Shown piece by piece: positions 22,393-34,011 of a stretch of DNA of 34,011 nucleotides (the stretch's first letter is position 1; every line of letters begins with the position of its first letter). Where the stretch lies: the IMG/VR virus record IMGVR_UViG_3300048833_000701, positions 1-34,011 of that record; one strand, 5' to 3'. The notes below the pieces were generated by a model. It was given only the letters and a program-made list of their open reading frames with translations. It made no database searches and was not told the DNA's origin. The DNA comes from a virus. The translations under genes were made by a program, and so were the position numbers.

Positions 22393-24228
22393 CTAGAACT
22401 CGTCGGGCCCTTCCTCTCGCGCCAGCGCCAGCGGCACCAGAACGCATTTCTGCGTCTGCCCGTTCAGGCGAACCGCCACGTCCCGTTCGGCGCCGGCCAG
22501 CCGCGCCAGCGCCTGCGCCCACACGCCGTCGGTGCCGCTCGCCGCCTGCCAGTGGCTTCCGCCGAACAGCCGCCCCAGCCCTTGGTTGGAAACCGCAACC
22601 GCCACCCATCGGCTGCCGTCCCTGCGCTTGATCACGCGCAGCCCGAACACCGCCAGCCCCTTTTCGCCTGTCCTGGCCTTCGTGGTGTCCAGGTCCGGGT
22701 TCTCGATCTCTTCGGCCGCCTTGTCGATCCAGTGCGCCACGGTCTGCGGCCGGCCGCCGCCGTCCAGCATCACGGTGGAGGACAGCAGATGGCGCAAACA
22801 CCGCGAGGCGTCGCCTTCGTCCTGGGCGGTTTCGCTCATGGCGCCCACCGCCATCAGCTCGGCATATTCGGCGGCCTGGGCGGCAGTGGGCGCGGTGTCC
22901 GCCACCAGCAGGTCCATGGTCGCCAGCAGCGTGCCGAACTGGTCGGCGCCGCGCGCGCTGTGCCCGGCATCCTCCAGCATCGTCCGATAGGTATCCAGCG
23001 TCTGTTGCCAGCGCGGCCAGCCGTCGATCAGCCGCCGCTGCATGGCGGCAGACATTCGTCGCAGCCATTCGGGCGTCAGGTTCGGCCGCGCCGCGCCTTT
23101 GGGCAGCGGGTCAAGGCTCAGCACGGCAAGGCGGCTCCGATCGGTGCCCTTCAACGGCTGCACCAGCACCGAACTGAACAGGAAGCAGCTGCGCGCAAGG
23201 AAATCGTGCGCCTGGTGGTCGCTGCCGCCGCGCACGATCTTGCCGCCGCTGGACGCCTGCCGCGCCAGCGTCAGCAGCGCCTGCTGCTTGCGGTTGTCCT
23301 CGCCCGGCTCCAGTTCGTCCAGCGCCACGGGCAGCGTCTGGTTGCCCAGCGTCTGCCGCACGCCGGCCTCGGATGCGTCCGAGGCCTGCAGCAGCCCGCC
23401 ACCCAGCACCCCTTCCACCAGCTTCTGCAGGGTGGATTTGCCGGTGCCCTTGTCACCCGTCAGCCAGGCGGCCGGTCGCCACTCCAGCGCGCCGCCCAGC
23501 CGGGCGGCGCCCAGCCAGCCCAGCATCAGAAACGGATCGACGGCCGGGCGCTGCCAGGCCCATGTCTGCAACATGGTCAGCAGCTCGTCCATCATCGTGG
23601 CAGACACCTTTGCCTGCGCGGGCCGGGGCAGGGGGGCGGCAGCTGGATAGACATGGCCGTGGTGCAAGCCCGGCTCGTGCCATTCCCCCTCGATCAGCAC
23701 CGCGTCTCCGCAATGCAGGATCAGCCCGCCGGCGCTGTCCTGCCAGGCACCTCGGCCACGAACCCGCTCGCTGGCGTTCCAGACGCCCTCGCGGGCGCAG
23801 GCATTCATCAGTTCCTCTCCGCAATCCTCCGGCCGCCAGCCCGTGATCATCCCCTTCACGTTCACACGCGGCCAGCTGGCGTGCACGAAATCCGTGCGTG
23901 GGGCGAACAGCGCCAACAGGTCCTTGTTGCCATGATCGCGCGCCTTCAGCTCGCGCATCTGCCCCACAACGTCCAGATAGAAGAAGGTTCCGCCATCCTT
24001 TCCTAACGGAGTCACAGGGCACCCCGCCGGAAGCCCTTCAACTCTCGGACGCCCCTTCTTGCCACCGCCGCCCCTGCGGCCGCTGCTGGCGCCCGGCTCT
24101 GGCTCGCCGTCAGGCGCCGGGCCGGATCGGGCGCCGCCTGCTTTGCCGCCCCGGCGCGCGGGCAGCGAAACAACCTCCGCACTCTGCAGGGCCGCGCGCG
24201 GGTCGTCTGGTGATGCATCGTCTGTCAT
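22393..24228 (-). CDS. P-loop replicative helicase-like protein (611 aa)
   Basis: A disordered Gly/Arg/Pro-rich N-terminus (residues 20-65) is followed by an N-terminal domain and a P-loop ATPase domain: Walker A TGDKGTGKST at 257-266 and a Walker B-like VALDELE at 301-307. The layout resembles DUF927/phage helicase proteins that pair with Toprim primases. It would unwind DNA at the phage origin. ATGA coupling to the Toprim gene supports a shared role. The family name is by eye only; the first 200 residues are not assigned. Confidence 0.83.
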   Translation of the reverse strand: MTDDASPDDPRAALQSAEVVSLPARRGGKAGGARSGPAPDGEPEPGASSGRRGGGGKKGRPRVEGLPAGCPVTPLGKDGGTFFYLDVVGQMRELKARDHGNKDLLALFAPRTDFVHASWPRVNVKGMITGWRPEDCGEELMNACAREGVWNASERVRGRGAWQDSAGGLILHCGDAVLIEGEWHEPGLHHGHVYPAAAPLPRPAQAKVSATMMDELLTMLQTWAWQRPAVDPFLMLGWLGAARLGGALEWRPAAWLTGDKGTGKSTLQKLVEGVLGGGLLQASDASEAGVRQTLGNQTLPVALDELEPGEDNRKQQALLTLARQASSGGKIVRGGSDHQAHDFLARSCFLFSSVLVQPLKGTDRSRLAVLSLDPLPKGAARPNLTPEWLRRMSAAMQRRLIDGWPRWQQTLDTYRTMLEDAGHSARGADQFGTLLATMDLLVADTAPTAAQAAEYAELMAVGAMSETAQDEGDASRCLRHLLSSTVMLDGGGRPQTVAHWIDKAAEEIENPDLDTTKARTGEKGLAVFGLRVIKRRDGSRWVAVAVSNQGLGRLFGGSHWQAASGTDGVWAQALARLAGAERDVAVRLNGQTQKCVLVPLALAREEGPDEF

Positions 24229-25379
24229 GTCGGTTGGTGCTGGCCCGCTGTTTGTCTGTTTATCGGGGTCGGGGGGCGCAGCTGCACCCAGTCATTGAAA
24301 TCCTTGATGCCGGGCGGCGGCTTCGCCACCCGAACTGTCCGCCCATGGCGCGCGTGGGCGGCAATCGCGTCCAGCTTGGCCTGGGCGGTGGGGTGCGGCA
24401 GCCCGTTCGGCAGCGTGGCAGGATCGTTCTGATCCACCAGCACAACTTCGCCCACCTGCGGCGGCAGCCAGATGGCCGCCATGTTGGCAATGCTGATCGC
24501 GGCCACCACGCGGGCTTCGGGCATCAGCAGCGCCACGGAAAGCGCGTCCTCGATGCCCTCGGTGATGTAAACGGGCACGCCGTCCGGCAGGCCGCGCAAC
24601 GGCTGCTTGTGTTCGCCCTTCCACACGGGGATGCAGGCGCCGCGAAAATCGCCCAGCACCATCTTCACCGGATCGACCGGCGCTTTCCGAACTTCGCCGG
24701 CCGCGCCTGGAATTCGCGGCTCTACAACCTGCAGATAGGTTCGGTGTGTCGCCACATGGCGCCCGTCCGGCGCCACCACGGCGGCAAGCATGGCCGGCCA
24801 GTGCGCACCGTCGCGATGAACGATGGACTGGCCGGCATGCAGGCAGCCGGGCCGCCTGCCCAGCTGCGAAAGCCCGATGCCACGCGATGTCAGATACCTG
24901 TCCACCACGTCGCCGGGCTCCAGCTTCGGCGCGGATAGCCACAAGCGCTGCGCCTTGCGGGATCGCCAGTCACTGTCTTTCTCCGCCTCACGCGCTTTTG
25001 CCTCGCGTGCCTTCCGCGCCCGCGCCTCGGCTTGGGCGTCGGGTTTCCACCCTTCGCCGTCGCCGATCCCCAGCCAGTGTTTCGCCCATTTGATCGCACC
25101 GGCCTTGTCTCCATGCGTTTTCAGGTAAGTCACCAGATCCAGCGCGTCGCCACGCGCGCCACTGGCAAAATGGCTCCAGATGCCGGCGCGCGGCCCGGAA
25201 AGGCGGACGGAAAGGCTGTCGCCCATGCCCCCGCGCGAAGCTGGCGCATCCTGCCATTCGGCACCATGGCGCTTGCCCAGCGGGATCAGCTCGGCCGCCA
25301 GCTCCTCGATGCGGTCTGTCAGCAGCCGCACGATTTCCGAAACCGCGATCAGGGGGGGGCGGGGCGCTGCGCCGCTCAC
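24225..25379 (-). CDS. Toprim-domain primase-like protein (384 aa)
   Basis: The Toprim signature lies at residues 271-285 (YITEGIEDALSVALL, catalytic Glu274) with a VVLVDQND acidic motif at 312-319 and a conserved C-terminal GIKDFNDWVQL. The N-terminal 110 residues (DSLSVRL…GIWSHFASGARGDALDLVTYL) match the catalytic-core partner region seen in phage and plasmid DUF7146/Toprim proteins, followed by a Lys/Arg/Glu helix (114-145). No CHC2-type zinc ribbon is present. It probably makes primers for the adjacent helicase. The start is GTG, overlapping the upstream stop as GTGA; an extended G/C run (CGCCCCCCCC) lies inside codons 7-9. Confidence 0.85.
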   Translation of the reverse strand: MSGAAPRPPLIAVSEIVRLLTDRIEELAAELIPLGKRHGAEWQDAPASRGGMGDSLSVRLSGPRAGIWSHFASGARGDALDLVTYLKTHGDKAGAIKWAKHWLGIGDGEGWKPDAQAEARARKAREAKAREAEKDSDWRSRKAQRLWLSAPKLEPGDVVDRYLTSRGIGLSQLGRRPGCLHAGQSIVHRDGAHWPAMLAAVVAPDGRHVATHRTYLQVVEPRIPGAAGEVRKAPVDPVKMVLGDFRGACIPVWKGEHKQPLRGLPDGVPVYITEGIEDALSVALLMPEARVVAAISIANMAAIWLPPQVGEVVLVDQNDPATLPNGLPHPTAQAKLDAIAAHARHGRTVRVAKPPPGIKDFNDWVQLRPPTPINRQTAGQHQPT

Positions 25380-25712: not shown

Positions 25713-26162
25713 TCAGGCTGTCCGCCCGCTGCTGCGCGCTCGCCCGGCTCCGGCCGCCGCATAGCGGGCCGGCTTGGCGCTGGCGGTCGCATAGCCGTCG
25801 GGAAAACGCACCACGCGGGTGCCCGGGCCGCGTTCGATCAGGATCGCGCCACCTCGTTCCAGCGCCGCCAGCGCAGCCGTCACCGGGGCCGCGCACGTCA
25901 GTTCCATCTGCTCGGCAAGCTGCCCGTTGCTGGGGCAGCAGCGCCCGGCCAGCGCCAGCGCGCGCAGATGCGCAGCCAGCCTGTCCCTCAGGTGCAGGGT
26001 TTCCACGGGTTCGGCAGCCGCCAGCTTGCGGTGTGCCTCGCCCAGCTGGCGCAGCAGCAGGTCGATGTCATCGGGGTGCAGCTCGGCGCGCGAATGGCCG
26101 ATCTGCACTTCGATCCGATGGCGGTTCACCATCGCCCGAACGGCTATGGCCGCTGCGCCCAT
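25713..26162 (-). CDS. Winged-helix DNA-binding protein (149 aa)
   Basis: Residues about 20-75 form long helices (DDIDLLLRQLGEAHRKLAAA; HLRDRLAAHLRALALA). Residues about 77-120 read as a GntR-like winged helix: CPSNGQLAEQMELTCAAPVTAALAALERGGAILIERGPGTRVVRFPDG, with helix-turn-helix followed by a beta-wing. The tail is Ala/Arg-rich. Likely roles are recognition of the phage origin (replication initiator) or operon regulation, so it is a candidate ligand for the TGTAAC repeats. The start is three bases after the previous stop; an ATG ten codons in is an alternative. Confidence 0.75.
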   Translation of the reverse strand: MGAAAIAVRAMVNRHRIEVQIGHSRAELHPDDIDLLLRQLGEAHRKLAAAEPVETLHLRDRLAAHLRALALAGRCCPSNGQLAEQMELTCAAPVTAALAALERGGAILIERGPGTRVVRFPDGYATASAKPARYAAAGAGRARSSGRTA

Positions 26163-26375: not shown

Positions 26376-26752
26376 AGCAACCGCCGCCCATGAAAGCTGC
26401 CACCGGCGGCGGCAGTCTTGCGGCCGTCCAGATTTCCGCCGGCCTCGTCATGCGCCGGTCCAGCTGCCGCTGCCGTCTCCCGCTGGGCGGCTTCCCAGCG
26501 CCGCACCAGCGGCATGGGGTCAACGCCGCAGTCGGCGGCCAGCCCGTCCATCAGGTCCACCAGCAGCACCTGCGCCTGCGCCACACTCAGCCCGGCCTGG
26601 GCCATGGGCGCGGCGCCATAATCAGCGCGATCGCCGTGCACGCACAGCACCAGCGGACGGTCCGCGCTGTCCTGCGTCCATACCCGCACGCTGCCGGTCC
26701 GTCGCAGGAACTCGGCCATGTCGGCCCGCTGCCTGATCAGTGGGCCCGTCAT
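26372..26752 (-). CDS. Early-operon protein, unknown (126 aa)
   Basis: The start overlaps the XRE gene stop as ATGA and the stop overlaps the next start as GTGA. An N-terminal helix-strand region (MAEFLRRTGSVRVWTQDSADRPLVLCVHGDRADYG) is followed by helices (LSVAQAQVLLVDLMDGLAADCG) and a Gly/Ala/Arg-rich tail. I recognise no family or catalytic motif. As the second gene of the leftward early operon it is probably expressed with the regulator and replication genes. Confidence 0.68.
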   Translation of the reverse strand: MTGPLIRQRADMAEFLRRTGSVRVWTQDSADRPLVLCVHGDRADYGAAPMAQAGLSVAQAQVLLVDLMDGLAADCGVDPMPLVRRWEAAQRETAAAAGPAHDEAGGNLDGRKTAAAGGSFHGRRLL

Positions 26753-27048
26753 GCGGCGTGCTTTCGCGATGTCGTTAAGGTCGTTTGCCGGTTGCCATCG
26801 CTGTCAACGCCGCCACTATCCGGCGCGGGGGTGTCATGCGGCGGCAAGTCATAGAAATCATTGGCGGTCACGGCGGCGCCCGTCATCGCCACCAGCTTCG
26901 CCATCAGATCAGGGCTGGGGATGTTCTGCCCGCTTTCCCACGAATACCAGGTCTGCCGGGTGCAGCCGATTTCGGCAGCTGCCTCGTTAACGCTCTTTCC
27001 GGCTTCGGCGCGCCACGAGCGGAGCTTGTTTTGGGCGGGGGCGGTCAT
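26749..27048 (-). CDS. XRE-family regulator heading the replication operon (99 aa)
   Basis: The helix-turn-helix lies at about residues 9-45: LRSWRAEAGKSVNEAAAEIGCTRQTWYSWESGQNIPSPDLMAKL, a clear XRE/Cro-CI DNA-binding domain, followed by a short disordered tail. I use the ATG at 27048 (MTAPAQNK); an ATG at 27069 lies inside a palindromic operator and is less likely. No ribosome site is obvious at either, so the mRNA may be leaderless. As first gene of the leftward operon and divergent from the other XRE gene, it is a Cro-like or activator candidate. The stop is coupled to the next gene (ATGA). Confidence 0.85.
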   Translation of the reverse strand: MTAPAQNKLRSWRAEAGKSVNEAAAEIGCTRQTWYSWESGQNIPSPDLMAKLVAMTGAAVTANDFYDLPPHDTPAPDSGGVDSDGNRQTTLTTSRKHAA

Positions 27049-27060
27049 ATCTGCAGCGGT

Positions 27061-27134
27061 GTAAGACATTCTCTTACGAATGCGCAAGGCCAATGTAAGA
27101 CACTATGAGATAGACATGTCAGCTACCGTCTTAC
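27061..27134. promoter_or_regulatory. Operator set A in the divergent regulator region
   Basis: Sites of the form GTAAGA-N5-TCTTAC: 27061-27077 is a perfect 17-bp palindrome; 27095-27111 has only the left half GTAAGA; 27118-27134 is GTCAGC-TACCG-TCTTAC (10 of 12 arm positions). Centres are 34 and 23 bases apart. They lie between and over the starts of the two divergent XRE genes, so the two genes' promoters probably overlap these sites. No strong -35/-10 pair is obvious for either direction. Confidence 0.7.
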
Positions 27135-27532
27135 ACTTTCCCGATATGGCAAGGCTTCCCAACAGGTTGCGGGAGCTGCGCGAGGCGCGCGGCATGTCCC
27201 AGCAGGAACTGGCCGATGAAGCTGGCTGCTCCAAGATGCAGATCTCCACGCTGGAACGCGGCCGCCCCAGCCTGGACATCGTGTGGATGCAGCGCCTGGC
27301 GCCCATCCTTCGTGTGGAGCCGGGCGAGCTGCTGAACCCGGACGATAACAGTCGTGCCGCCCGGGACGCGGAAGAGCTGCGGCTGATCATGCTCGCCCGC
27401 CGCATGCCGCATGCCGTGCTGGAAAAGTTCCTGGGTGTGGGCGAGGCTCTCGCCGGCGATTATGTGGCCGAACCGGCGGCCAGCCCTAGCCGGGCTGCGC
27501 CCGACGATGCGGACGAGCATCGCGCGGCGTGA
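27116..27532 (+). CDS. XRE-family repressor-like protein without peptidase domain (138 aa)
   Basis: The helix-turn-helix at about residues 12-50 (RLPNRLRELREARGMSQQELADEAGCSKMQISTLERGRPSLD) is a clean XRE domain; the rest is helical and acidic. There is no S24 peptidase (Ser-Lys) domain, so RecA-triggered self-cleavage is not expected. Several starts are possible: 27080, 27116 and 27146. I choose 27116 because a weak TATGAG box at 27104-27109 would give a leaderless start there, but 27146 (MARLPNRL) is credible. The gene is paired by GTGA with a small membrane protein. It is the likely prophage repressor binding the GTAAGA palindromes. Confidence 0.82.
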   Translation: MSATVLHFPDMARLPNRLRELREARGMSQQELADEAGCSKMQISTLERGRPSLDIVWMQRLAPILRVEPGELLNPDDNSRAARDAEELRLIMLARRMPHAVLEKFLGVGEALAGDYVAEPAASPSRAAPDDADEHRAA

Positions 27533-27807
27533 GGAACGGCCCCGATCTGCGCACTTTGTCGGATCGCTGGAGCGACCCCGCCTTTATCGCTCGCCATGGG
27601 CACCGGCCCTTCATGCTCCTAATGGCGGTGCAATTCATCATATTGCCCGCAACCGTCGCCGCCGTCGTCTCCACCCACAGCTTCTATTTGCCGTGGAGCT
27701 GGGCGGAGAGCGGGTTTGCCTGGTTCGCCTTCGCGTTCATGGGCAACTGGATACTTGGCAATGGCTTCTCGCTGGGCGTCCTGTTTGCGGTCTGGCTGCT
27801 GATGTAA
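27529..27807 (+). CDS. Small membrane protein paired with the repressor gene (92 aa)
   Basis: The GTG start overlaps the repressor stop. Residues about 28-48 (MLLMAVQFIILPATVAAVVS) and 63-92 (FAWFAFAFMGNWILGNGF…LFAVWLLM) form two transmembrane stretches, and the first 27 residues are polar. Expressed with the repressor in the lysogen, such proteins often act in superinfection exclusion or immunity; that is inferred from context and I recognise no family. Operator set B overlaps its stop codon (27804-27820). Confidence 0.72.
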   Translation: MRNGPDLRTLSDRWSDPAFIARHGHRPFMLLMAVQFIILPATVAAVVSTHSFYLPWSWAESGFAWFAFAFMGNWILGNGFSLGVLFAVWLLM

Positions 27808-27853
27808 AGAAATATCTTACATCACCCCTTGACTATGTAAGACGATAGCTTAC
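27804..27853 (+). promoter_or_regulatory. Operator set B and early rightward promoter candidate
   Basis: GTAAAG-AAATA-TCTTAC (27804-27820) and GTAAGA-CGATA-GCTTAC (27837-27853) are 17-bp palindromes of the same type as operator set A, centres 33 bases apart. TTGACT at 27829-27834 and TACAAC at 27851-27856, 16 bases apart, form a plausible sigma-70-like promoter with the second operator between the boxes, so binding would repress the early plus-strand operon. Confidence 0.7.
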
Positions 27854-27857
27854 AACC

Positions 27858-27878
27858 GCCTCCGTAACGAACGGAGGC
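27858..27878 (+). promoter_or_regulatory. 8-bp hairpin covering the ribosome site of the first early gene
   Basis: GCCTCCGT (27858-27865) and ACGGAGGC (27871-27878) are perfectly complementary around AACGA. The right arm contains GGAGG, the ribosome site five bases before the ATG at 27883. If transcription starts upstream of 27858, translation would be blocked until the stem opens; if the start is near 27863 (predicted promoter), the stem is broken. It could alternatively be a DNA palindrome bound by a regulator. Confidence 0.6.
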
Positions 27879-27882
27879 CACT

Positions 27883-28185
27883 ATGGCTCACAGCGTCAAC
27901 TGGAATATCAAGGCTCACGACGAATGCGCGATTGCCCGCATCGTCGAACGCTTTCTGGCGTTCTACGGCCGGAGCAGACGGATCGAAGAAATCGAACGGC
28001 GCATGGATCTGATCGCATGCCATCTGAATGGCTGCCCGCTCGATCTGGCGAAGCTGGAAGCCTTCGATGATCTCAACCTGGTCCACGATATCTGCGGCAT
28101 CGGCCGGCACATCGACCGCCGCACCGGGAAGCTGCAGAACTTCTTCCAGCCTCGTTGCGCCCAGCCTGAACAGGTGGGGGCCTGA
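27883..28185 (+). CDS. DUF6874-like early protein (100 aa)
   Basis: The ATG has GGAGG five bases upstream. The core block MDLIACHLNGCPLDLAKLEAFDDLNLVHDICGIGRHIDRRTGKL…FFQPR is the recurrent pattern of a small phage/prophage family I associate with DUF6874; the number is from memory and needs a search. His, Cys and Asp residues in this block suggest a possible metal site. It is the first gene of the early rightward operon, directly under operator set B, two bases from the DUF2786-like gene. Function unknown. Confidence 0.72.
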   Translation: MAHSVNWNIKAHDECAIARIVERFLAFYGRSRRIEEIERRMDLIACHLNGCPLDLAKLEAFDDLNLVHDICGIGRHIDRRTGKLQNFFQPRCAQPEQVGA

Positions 28186-32769: not shown

Positions 32770-34011
32770 ATGAAAATCCGCGTGCCTCACCTTGTCGCCA
32801 AGCCGGCCCGTCACGGCCGCACCCGCTACTATTGGCAGCCCAGCGCCACGCTGAAGGCGGCGGGCTGGGAACCGCAGACGCTCGGCCATGATCTTGATCA
32901 GGCCATGAAGCTGGCGGCCGAATGGAACGGCCGCGTGAATGATTGGCGCGACGGCGCCACCGATCAGGAAGGCGCCCGCGCTGCCAAGGCCCGCATCAAG
33001 CGCTTTGCCCGCCCGCTCACCATGCGCGCGCTGATCGCGGATTTCCGGGCAGATCGCTGGCCCCACCTGGGCGCGGCCACCCAGCGCACCTATTCCTCCG
33101 CGCTGGAGGCCATCGACAAATGGGGGGGCGATCAACAGCCGTCGTCTATCTCGGCGGAAAGCTGCCGCAAGCTGCTGGCGGCGCTGGCCCGGCCGGCCGC
33201 GCCCGGCGGCGAAGAACGGCTGCACCGGGCGTCCGGTATCGGCCGGGTGCTGCGCACCCTGATGCAATGGGCGGTCGATAACGATCATGTCGCGGCGAAC
33301 CCCATGGATCGTGTCCGCATCCGGCAGGCCCCGCCGCGTCACCAGATCTGGCCGGATCACTGCATAGAGGCGATGGTGGCCATGGCCGATGCCATGGAGT
33401 TGGGGGCAATCGGCACTGCAACGCTTCTCGCGGCTGACACGGGCCAGCGCGAGGGCGACATACTCAAGCTGGGGCGGGGCCGTATTTTAACTGAGGGCGG
33501 CCGCCGCTCGATCCGTCTGCAACAGGGCAAGACGAAGGTGTGGGTGCAGGTGCCGCTCACGGCCCGCCTGTCGGCCAGGCTCGATCAGCTGGATGCGGAA
33601 AACAAGCGCCGCGAGGTTCCGGTCACCACGATCATCGTGCGCGCGTCCGGCCAGCCTTATGCCTCCAACTGGTTCATCCGCCAGTTCGCCGCCGTGCGCG
33701 CCGCCACCATCGCGGGAGACATGGAAAAGGGGCTGCAGCCCTGCCCTGAACTGGAAGGCCTGCAGTATCGCGATCTGCGCCGCACGCTGATCGTGCGCCT
33801 GGCTGAAGCAGAGGTGGACTTGCCCGGCATCGCCGCGATCAGCGGCCACCAGATCGAAGCCTGCAAGAAGATCCTCGAAACCTACATGCCGCGCACCGGC
33901 AAGATGGCGGCCGCCGCCGTCCAGAAACTCGAAGCCCACCGCGCCGAACGCGGGGCGGAAGGGCAGGGCGAAGCAGCTAAAGGATTGACGGCGGAAGGCC
34001 ACGTCGCCTAA
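32770..34011 (+). CDS. int: Tyrosine recombinase integrase (413 aa)
   Basis: The start ATG at 32770 has GGAAGGG eight bases upstream. Residues 82-180 form the core-binding (SAM-like) domain. Catalytic candidates: Arg227 (ADTGQREGD), Lys253/255 (QGKTK), the HxxR box as R334-D-L-R337 in LQYRDLRRT (the usual first His is Arg), His360 (AISGH) and the nucleophile Tyr372 (LETYMPR). The length is typical of phage integrases. It ends exactly at the window edge. It is last in the early operon, so it could be expressed by read-through or its own leader. No attachment site is visible here; attP normally lies beside int, probably beyond the edge. Confidence 0.93.
   Translation: MKIRVPHLVAKPARHGRTRYYWQPSATLKAAGWEPQTLGHDLDQAMKLAAEWNGRVNDWRDGATDQEGARAAKARIKRFARPLTMRALIADFRADRWPHLGAATQRTYSSALEAIDKWGGDQQPSSISAESCRKLLAALARPAAPGGEERLHRASGIGRVLRTLMQWAVDNDHVAANPMDRVRIRQAPPRHQIWPDHCIEAMVAMADAMELGAIGTATLLAADTGQREGDILKLGRGRILTEGGRRSIRLQQGKTKVWVQVPLTARLSARLDQLDAENKRREVPVTTIIVRASGQPYASNWFIRQFAAVRAATIAGDMEKGLQPCPELEGLQYRDLRRTLIVRLAEAEVDLPGIAAISGHQIEACKKILETYMPRTGKMAAAAVQKLEAHRAERGAEGQGEAAKGLTAEGHVA

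Follow-up and report, generated by a model that had tools for sequence, protein, structure and literature searches.

The closest published match to the region described here is phiKO2, in which three OR and two OL operators lie ~630 bp apart. In lambda, the genes run in the order replication, cro, cI, rex slot, PL operon and int. Looping between operator sets is known for HK022 CI across ~700 bp and for phiKO2 CB across ~630 bp (PMC8053113). We analysed a stretch of viral DNA, called the window throughout, whose 34,011 bp make up the whole of one virus record (IMGVR_UViG_3300048833_000701). Judging from its sequence, we consider it highly probable that the window carries a lambda-like immunity region, in which a CI-like repressor, XREp, would bind five putative 17-bp operators, O1-O3 resembling OR and O4-O5 resembling PL/OL. 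In our literature search, whose coverage was incomplete, the switch of this phage group was nowhere described.

Results

Operator sites in the window

A scan of the whole record for GTAAGA-N5-TCTTAC at up to three mismatches returned four places in 34,011 bp (27061, 27118, 27804 and 27837), all within one cluster. Over the 12 specified bases, the site at 27061 has no mismatch, 27837 has one, 27118 and 27804 have two each, and a fifth site at 27095 has four, with one half-site exact. All five sites that an earlier note had proposed here are therefore present, with mismatch counts of 0-4. The spacings it gave, 34/23 in the first set and 33 in the second, are likewise correct, and they prove to be family features among relatives. 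Exact half-sites follow the same restriction: GTAAGA occurs in the record solely at 27061, 27095 and 27837, and TCTTAC solely at 27072, 27129 and 27815. When four mismatches were allowed, the count rose to 30 places, and by score alone the 27095 site is no better than the ~25 four-mismatch places outside the cluster. What makes it credible is that its exact half-site occurs nowhere beyond the cluster and that a site recurs in relatives at this offset.

The sites and their restriction to two places were computed directly, which leaves the question of whether such palindromes could arise by chance. The bare count would allow it, being little out of the ordinary (at three mismatches or fewer, 4 of 100 shuffled sequences have four sites), but quality and clustering would not: Markov simulations gave a mean of 0.07 sites with at most two mismatches, and none of 2,000 placed three within 800 bp. 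Relatives, moreover, keep the layout with a changed operator sequence. On the simulations and this conserved layout we rejected chance, whose probability we regard as negligible.

Gene order around the switch

The operators are embedded in a gene order of primase/helicase, Cro-like gene, CI-like gene, small gene, PL operon and integrase. On the minus strand, XREm (26749..27048) encodes a 99-aa Cro/C1-type HTH protein (HTH_31, E=1.3e-10) in a Cro-like position at the head of the primase/helicase operon, and its orthologues in relatives keep NDFYD(L/V)P. Small genes follow it on the same strand, then a Toprim primase (24225-25379) and a primase/helicase-like protein (22393-24228). One product of this Cro-side operon, a 149-aa protein (25713-26162), has a weak GntR/LexA-type winged-helix match.

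On the plus strand, XREp (27116..27532) encodes the 138-aa CI-like repressor, with an HTH and two C-terminal helices in a SinR-like arrangement. A 92-aa protein with two predicted transmembrane segments (27529..27807, plus strand) occupies a rex-like position between the repressor and the second operator set. The gene in this slot differs among relatives and is absent in some phages; many of the slot genes encode small proteins with predicted transmembrane segments, making this a candidate superinfection-exclusion slot. The first gene of the PL operon encodes DUF6874 (27883..28185, plus strand; Pfam PF21779, E=1.7e-28), and the same-strand gene run ends in an integrase of the tyrosine recombinase type (32770..34011, plus strand; Pfam Phage_integrase, E=8.1e-9). 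As in a lambda-like OR/OL region, divergent repressor and Cro-like HTH genes have operators between them, a second set of the same sequence lies at a second early promoter past the repressor gene, and the Cro side leads to replication genes while the OL side leads to int.

Predicted promoters and their operators

At the switch, the perfect palindrome O1 (27061..27077), identified by the pattern scan and by an equivalent dyad in relatives, lies over the XREm promoter and overlaps its predicted -10 (TTACAC, 27059..27064, minus strand), which is in the register of the relatives' TTGTCA-N17 element. The degenerate O2 (27095..27111), with one perfect half, overlaps the spacer and the predicted -10 of the XREp promoter (TATGAG, 27104..27109, plus strand; same register in relatives). 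O3 (27118..27134) is a near-palindrome over XREp codons 1-7. The offsets of O2 and O3, +33 and +57/58, recur in the switch of relatives. Between O1 and O2, the -35 elements of the divergent promoters overlap at 27081..27087 (TGCGCA at 27081-27086 on the plus strand, TTGCGC at 27087-27082 on the minus strand); the shared overlap reads TGCGCAA in the window and TTGACAA in most GTAA-type relatives.

The predicted XREp transcription start, ~27116, coincides with its ATG, so the repressor mRNA would be leaderless. This start codon is backed by an MSAxVLxF-like N-terminal peptide kept across GTAA-type relatives. Because O3 overlaps the first codons of XREp (ATG 27116; MSATVLHF...), its conservation is partly coding; two relatives, L006 and L008, keep the N-terminal peptide while the palindrome decays, which makes O3 the least certain of the putative sites.

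The second set accompanies a PL-like promoter on the plus strand, with a -35 at 27829..27834 (TTGACT), a predicted -10 at 27851..27856 (TACAAC) and a predicted start at ~27862-27865. The putative distal operator O4 (27804..27820) lies 8 bp upstream of the -35, whereas the putative strong operator O5 (27837..27853) sits in the spacer and reaches into the -10, supplying the first three bases of TACAAC. The earlier note had this set bracketing the TTGACT/TACAAC promoter, a description that does not hold strictly, since O5 fills the spacer. In most relatives TTGAC(N) is equally placed with respect to the operator, ~8 bp after the first downstream site and 2 bp before the second, which runs into the -10 as in the window. 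In 21 of 30 loci, the two sites of the downstream set are separated by 32-35 bp. All three -10 elements were assigned by reading the sequence; the window's hexamers are weak, and a strict consensus sigma-70 scan of the window returned zero promoters, so that the promoter positions at the divergent switch and at PL are given as predictions.

Conservation of the two-set layout

When viral contigs and genome contigs were searched with a single protein, be it one of the XRE proteins or the helicase, no close relative or one was returned. Relatives were instead gathered by aligning the helicase with three of its homologues and searching with that alignment, which gave ~100 loci in viral contigs and in bacterial genomes, the sources including Sphingomonas, Sphingopyxis, Albimonas, Palleronia and Brevundimonas. 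Profiles of both XRE proteins located the divergent pair in 47 loci, 42 of them with distinct intergenic regions, and removal of near-duplicates left 36 distinct loci. For each, we compared the switch with a stretch of up to 1.2 kb past XREp and took the best ungapped 17-mer match, with a threshold of at least 15/17.

Twenty-three of the 36 loci have a 17-mer at this threshold common to the switch and the region downstream of XREp. When the switch was instead paired with the downstream region of a locus with an unrelated operator, 11 of 1,088 pairings reached at least 15/17, and none of 20,000 permutations attained the 23-locus total. The use of one operator type at the divergent switch and again at the plus-strand promoter downstream, which the earlier note had proposed for this phage, is thus a family-wide design. 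The remaining 13 of 36 loci fall below 15/17 in this comparison, and in several loci (L015, L020, L022, L095 and L096) there is no convincing second set.

The shared sequences are dyads of ~17 bp that differ between phages and comprise at least eight operator sequences: GTAAG-CTTAC, GTAAC-GTTAC, ATTGCCA-TGGCAAT, AATACCA-TGGTATT, GTCACAT-ATGTGAC, TATGTCG-CGTTATA, TTAGC-GCTAA and direct copies of ATATAAGC. The layout, as computed across these loci, is kept while the operator changes.

Two further observations concern site arrangement. Among the ATTGCCA-type relatives, L023, L069, L063 and L056 have switch sites ~24 and then 32 bp apart counting from the XREm side, an order that mirrors the 33/25 found in GTAA-type relatives. 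In L060, extra high-scoring operator-like sites occur ~7.2-7.7 kb from the switch on its XREm side, far from both sets, and perhaps mark a third controlled promoter.

Covariation of operators with both recognition helices

Operators, chosen as the best switch/downstream pair at each of 30 loci, were compared with the proteins by Mantel tests. Operator distance correlated with the recognition-helix distance of XREp (r=0.39, p=0.0005) and equally with that of XREm (r=0.39, p=0.0005), in contrast to helicase distance (r=-0.01), the loci not being independent of one another in any of these tests. Each helix kept r=0.29 (p ~0.001 or less) once the helicase, the remainder of the protein it belongs to and the helix of the other XRE protein had been controlled for. 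Because the operator covaries independently with each recognition helix, a result computed directly, both XRE proteins probably read the sites in a CI/Cro-like manner. The proposal of a single XRE regulator for both control points therefore stands for the operator, one type being present at both, while the covariation points to two regulators in place of one.

A variant in which only one XRE protein uses all the sites, the other reading a subset or acting elsewhere, has a precedent in phiKO2, where Cro binds OR3 only and CB binds all five operators, and the dyads of the window are unequal in quality. Against it, the operator covaries with each helix after controlling for the other. We hold this variant to be possible but do not favour it.

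A putative repressor of a different type

In Pfam, XREp matches HTH families only, plus a sub-threshold match to sigma-70 region 4, and neither Pfam nor the structure model places an S24 peptidase/autocleavage-oligomerisation domain in it. Its AlphaFold2 model (pLDDT 82.9) consists of the HTH and two further helices (H85-96 and H99-113). The top Foldseek match is SinR; the overall superposition is loose (rmsd 6.5), and the HTH alone aligns well. Because XREp has no S24 domain in this model, RecA-type autocleavage is unlikely, and an antirepressor may be required for induction. Not every lambda-like switch relies on such a domain: the CB repressor of phiKO2 is without a cleavage site. XREp would thus work like CI but falls outside the CI family, in which CI carries peptidase S24.

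The best PDB sequence match of XREp is C.AhdI, and C-proteins use paired dyads, so XREp could in principle be a restriction-modification controller (C-protein) or a toxin-antitoxin autoregulator, not a phage immunity repressor. However, no adjacent restriction or toxin gene was found: around the switch, the searched proteins comprise HTH, primase, helicase and integrase proteins and others of unknown function. The divergent pair has primase/helicase on one side and the integrase operon on the other, and this arrangement is kept in phage relatives. We rejected the restriction-modification controller on these grounds and consider either regulator of this kind very improbable.

With XREp as a phage immunity repressor, its binding to the perfect O1 would shut the promoter of the Cro-like XREm, the head of the primase/helicase operon. 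At O5, aided by O4 three helical turns away, it would shut PL, which heads the plus-strand operon ending in the integrase. The weak O2 and O3 over its own promoter would serve autoregulation, or repression by the Cro-like XREm reading the same sites. Repression itself, cooperativity and which protein wins at which site are what we infer from the computed features.

Looping between the two sets

The earlier note had also suggested looping between the two sets, which in the window lie ~0.75 kb apart. A lambda-like region with long-range looping, in which repressor multimers bridge OR and OL, would fit the distances over which HK022 CI and phiKO2 CB loop (~700 and 630 bp; PMC8053113), and SinR, the top structural match, is described as tetrameric (PMC3163267). 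Across relatives, however, the OR-OL distance varies from ~0.43 to 1.25 kb, without helical phasing when repeats of 10-11.5 bp were tried (n=11 relatives, Rayleigh p 0.42-0.83), and XREp has no C-terminal domain like that of lambda CI. The suggestion is thus unsupported by these comparisons; looping is possible, and we judge the bridged form of the region unlikely.

A predicted Shine-Dalgarno hairpin at PL

Just past the PL -10, the sequence GCCTCCGT-AACGA-ACGGAGGC (27858..27878, plus strand) can form a hairpin whose 3' arm carries the Shine-Dalgarno of the next gene, DUF6874. Its predicted folding energy is -15.0 kcal/mol, compared with -4.0 for shuffles (z -5.5). The Shine-Dalgarno of the first PL gene is predicted to be hairpin-paired in 23 of the 25 leaders scored, against 17% for comparable structure at other genes of the same loci. 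With the arms anchored separately by a rule that misplaces a few loci, pairing in register was 74%, compared with 27-53% when the arms were slid, and some compensatory changes amount to partial covariation.

The predicted PL start falls inside the 5' arm, just past the anti-Shine-Dalgarno bases, and the plus strand from XREp to PL yielded no intrinsic terminator. A similar arrangement is described for T4 gene e, where the promoter lies within the DNA for the 5' arm of a Shine-Dalgarno-covering hairpin and late transcripts escape the hairpin that silences longer ones (PMC3014915). By a corresponding translational lock, transcripts reading through from the repressor operon would be kept untranslated by the hairpin at the start of the PL operon, whereas PL transcripts, beginning within the 5' arm, would escape it. 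The setting differs from gene e in that the promoter here would be a repressed early promoter of a temperate phage, and the mechanism is proposed from the predicted fold and start.

Discussion

In phages that infect Sphingomonas and other proteobacteria, the lambda two-set design with fixed operator spacing appears to be run by another kind of repressor. A broader generalisation is tentative, and we give it somewhat less than even weight: that lambda-like switches are widespread in which small SinR-like repressors without autocleavage, induced by a route other than RecA (perhaps by a small antirepressor), are combined with a PL hairpin silencing read-through and with operators repeatedly switched in step with both recognition helices. 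The ~30 pairings of operators with helices are a natural data set on the joint change of DNA specificity in two HTH proteins, and from their sequences superinfection-immunity groups are predicted. The PL hairpin provides a route, open to testing, to silent prophage early genes despite a repressor gene that points into them.

Comparison with known systems

The window shares with the phiKO2/N15 immB region (CB, Cro) the 3 + 2 operators, the repressor gene between the sets, a separation of the same order (~630 bp in phiKO2) and a repressor without a RecA cleavage site. It differs in its 138-aa repressor (CB is ~37 kDa), its 17-bp operators (16 bp in phiKO2), its ~three-turn spacing and a PL that heads a run ending in the integrase, whereas OL of phiKO2 controls repA and its Cro is confined to one operator. 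With lambda OR/OL it has in common the divergent CI/Cro-like switch, 17-bp operators, slot gene(s) in the rex position, a PL that reads the same way as the repressor gene and leads to int, and a leaderless repressor mRNA, predicted here. In contrast to lambda, the repressor has no S24/CTD domain, there are two OL operators and not three, operators are ~three turns apart and not two, the sets are separated by 0.75 kb and not 2.3 kb, and a Shine-Dalgarno hairpin lies at PL. HK022 OL/OR has sets at a similar distance (~700 bp), but its CI is homologous to other lambdoid repressors (PMC8053113), whereas XREp, a small HTH protein, lacks the C-terminal domain that those repressors have. SinR of B. 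subtilis resembles XREp in combining an HTH with C-terminal helices but is a chromosomal biofilm regulator. What is new here is that an OR/OL region of the lambda/phiKO2 kind combines a repressor of another type with an additional, predicted translational feature.
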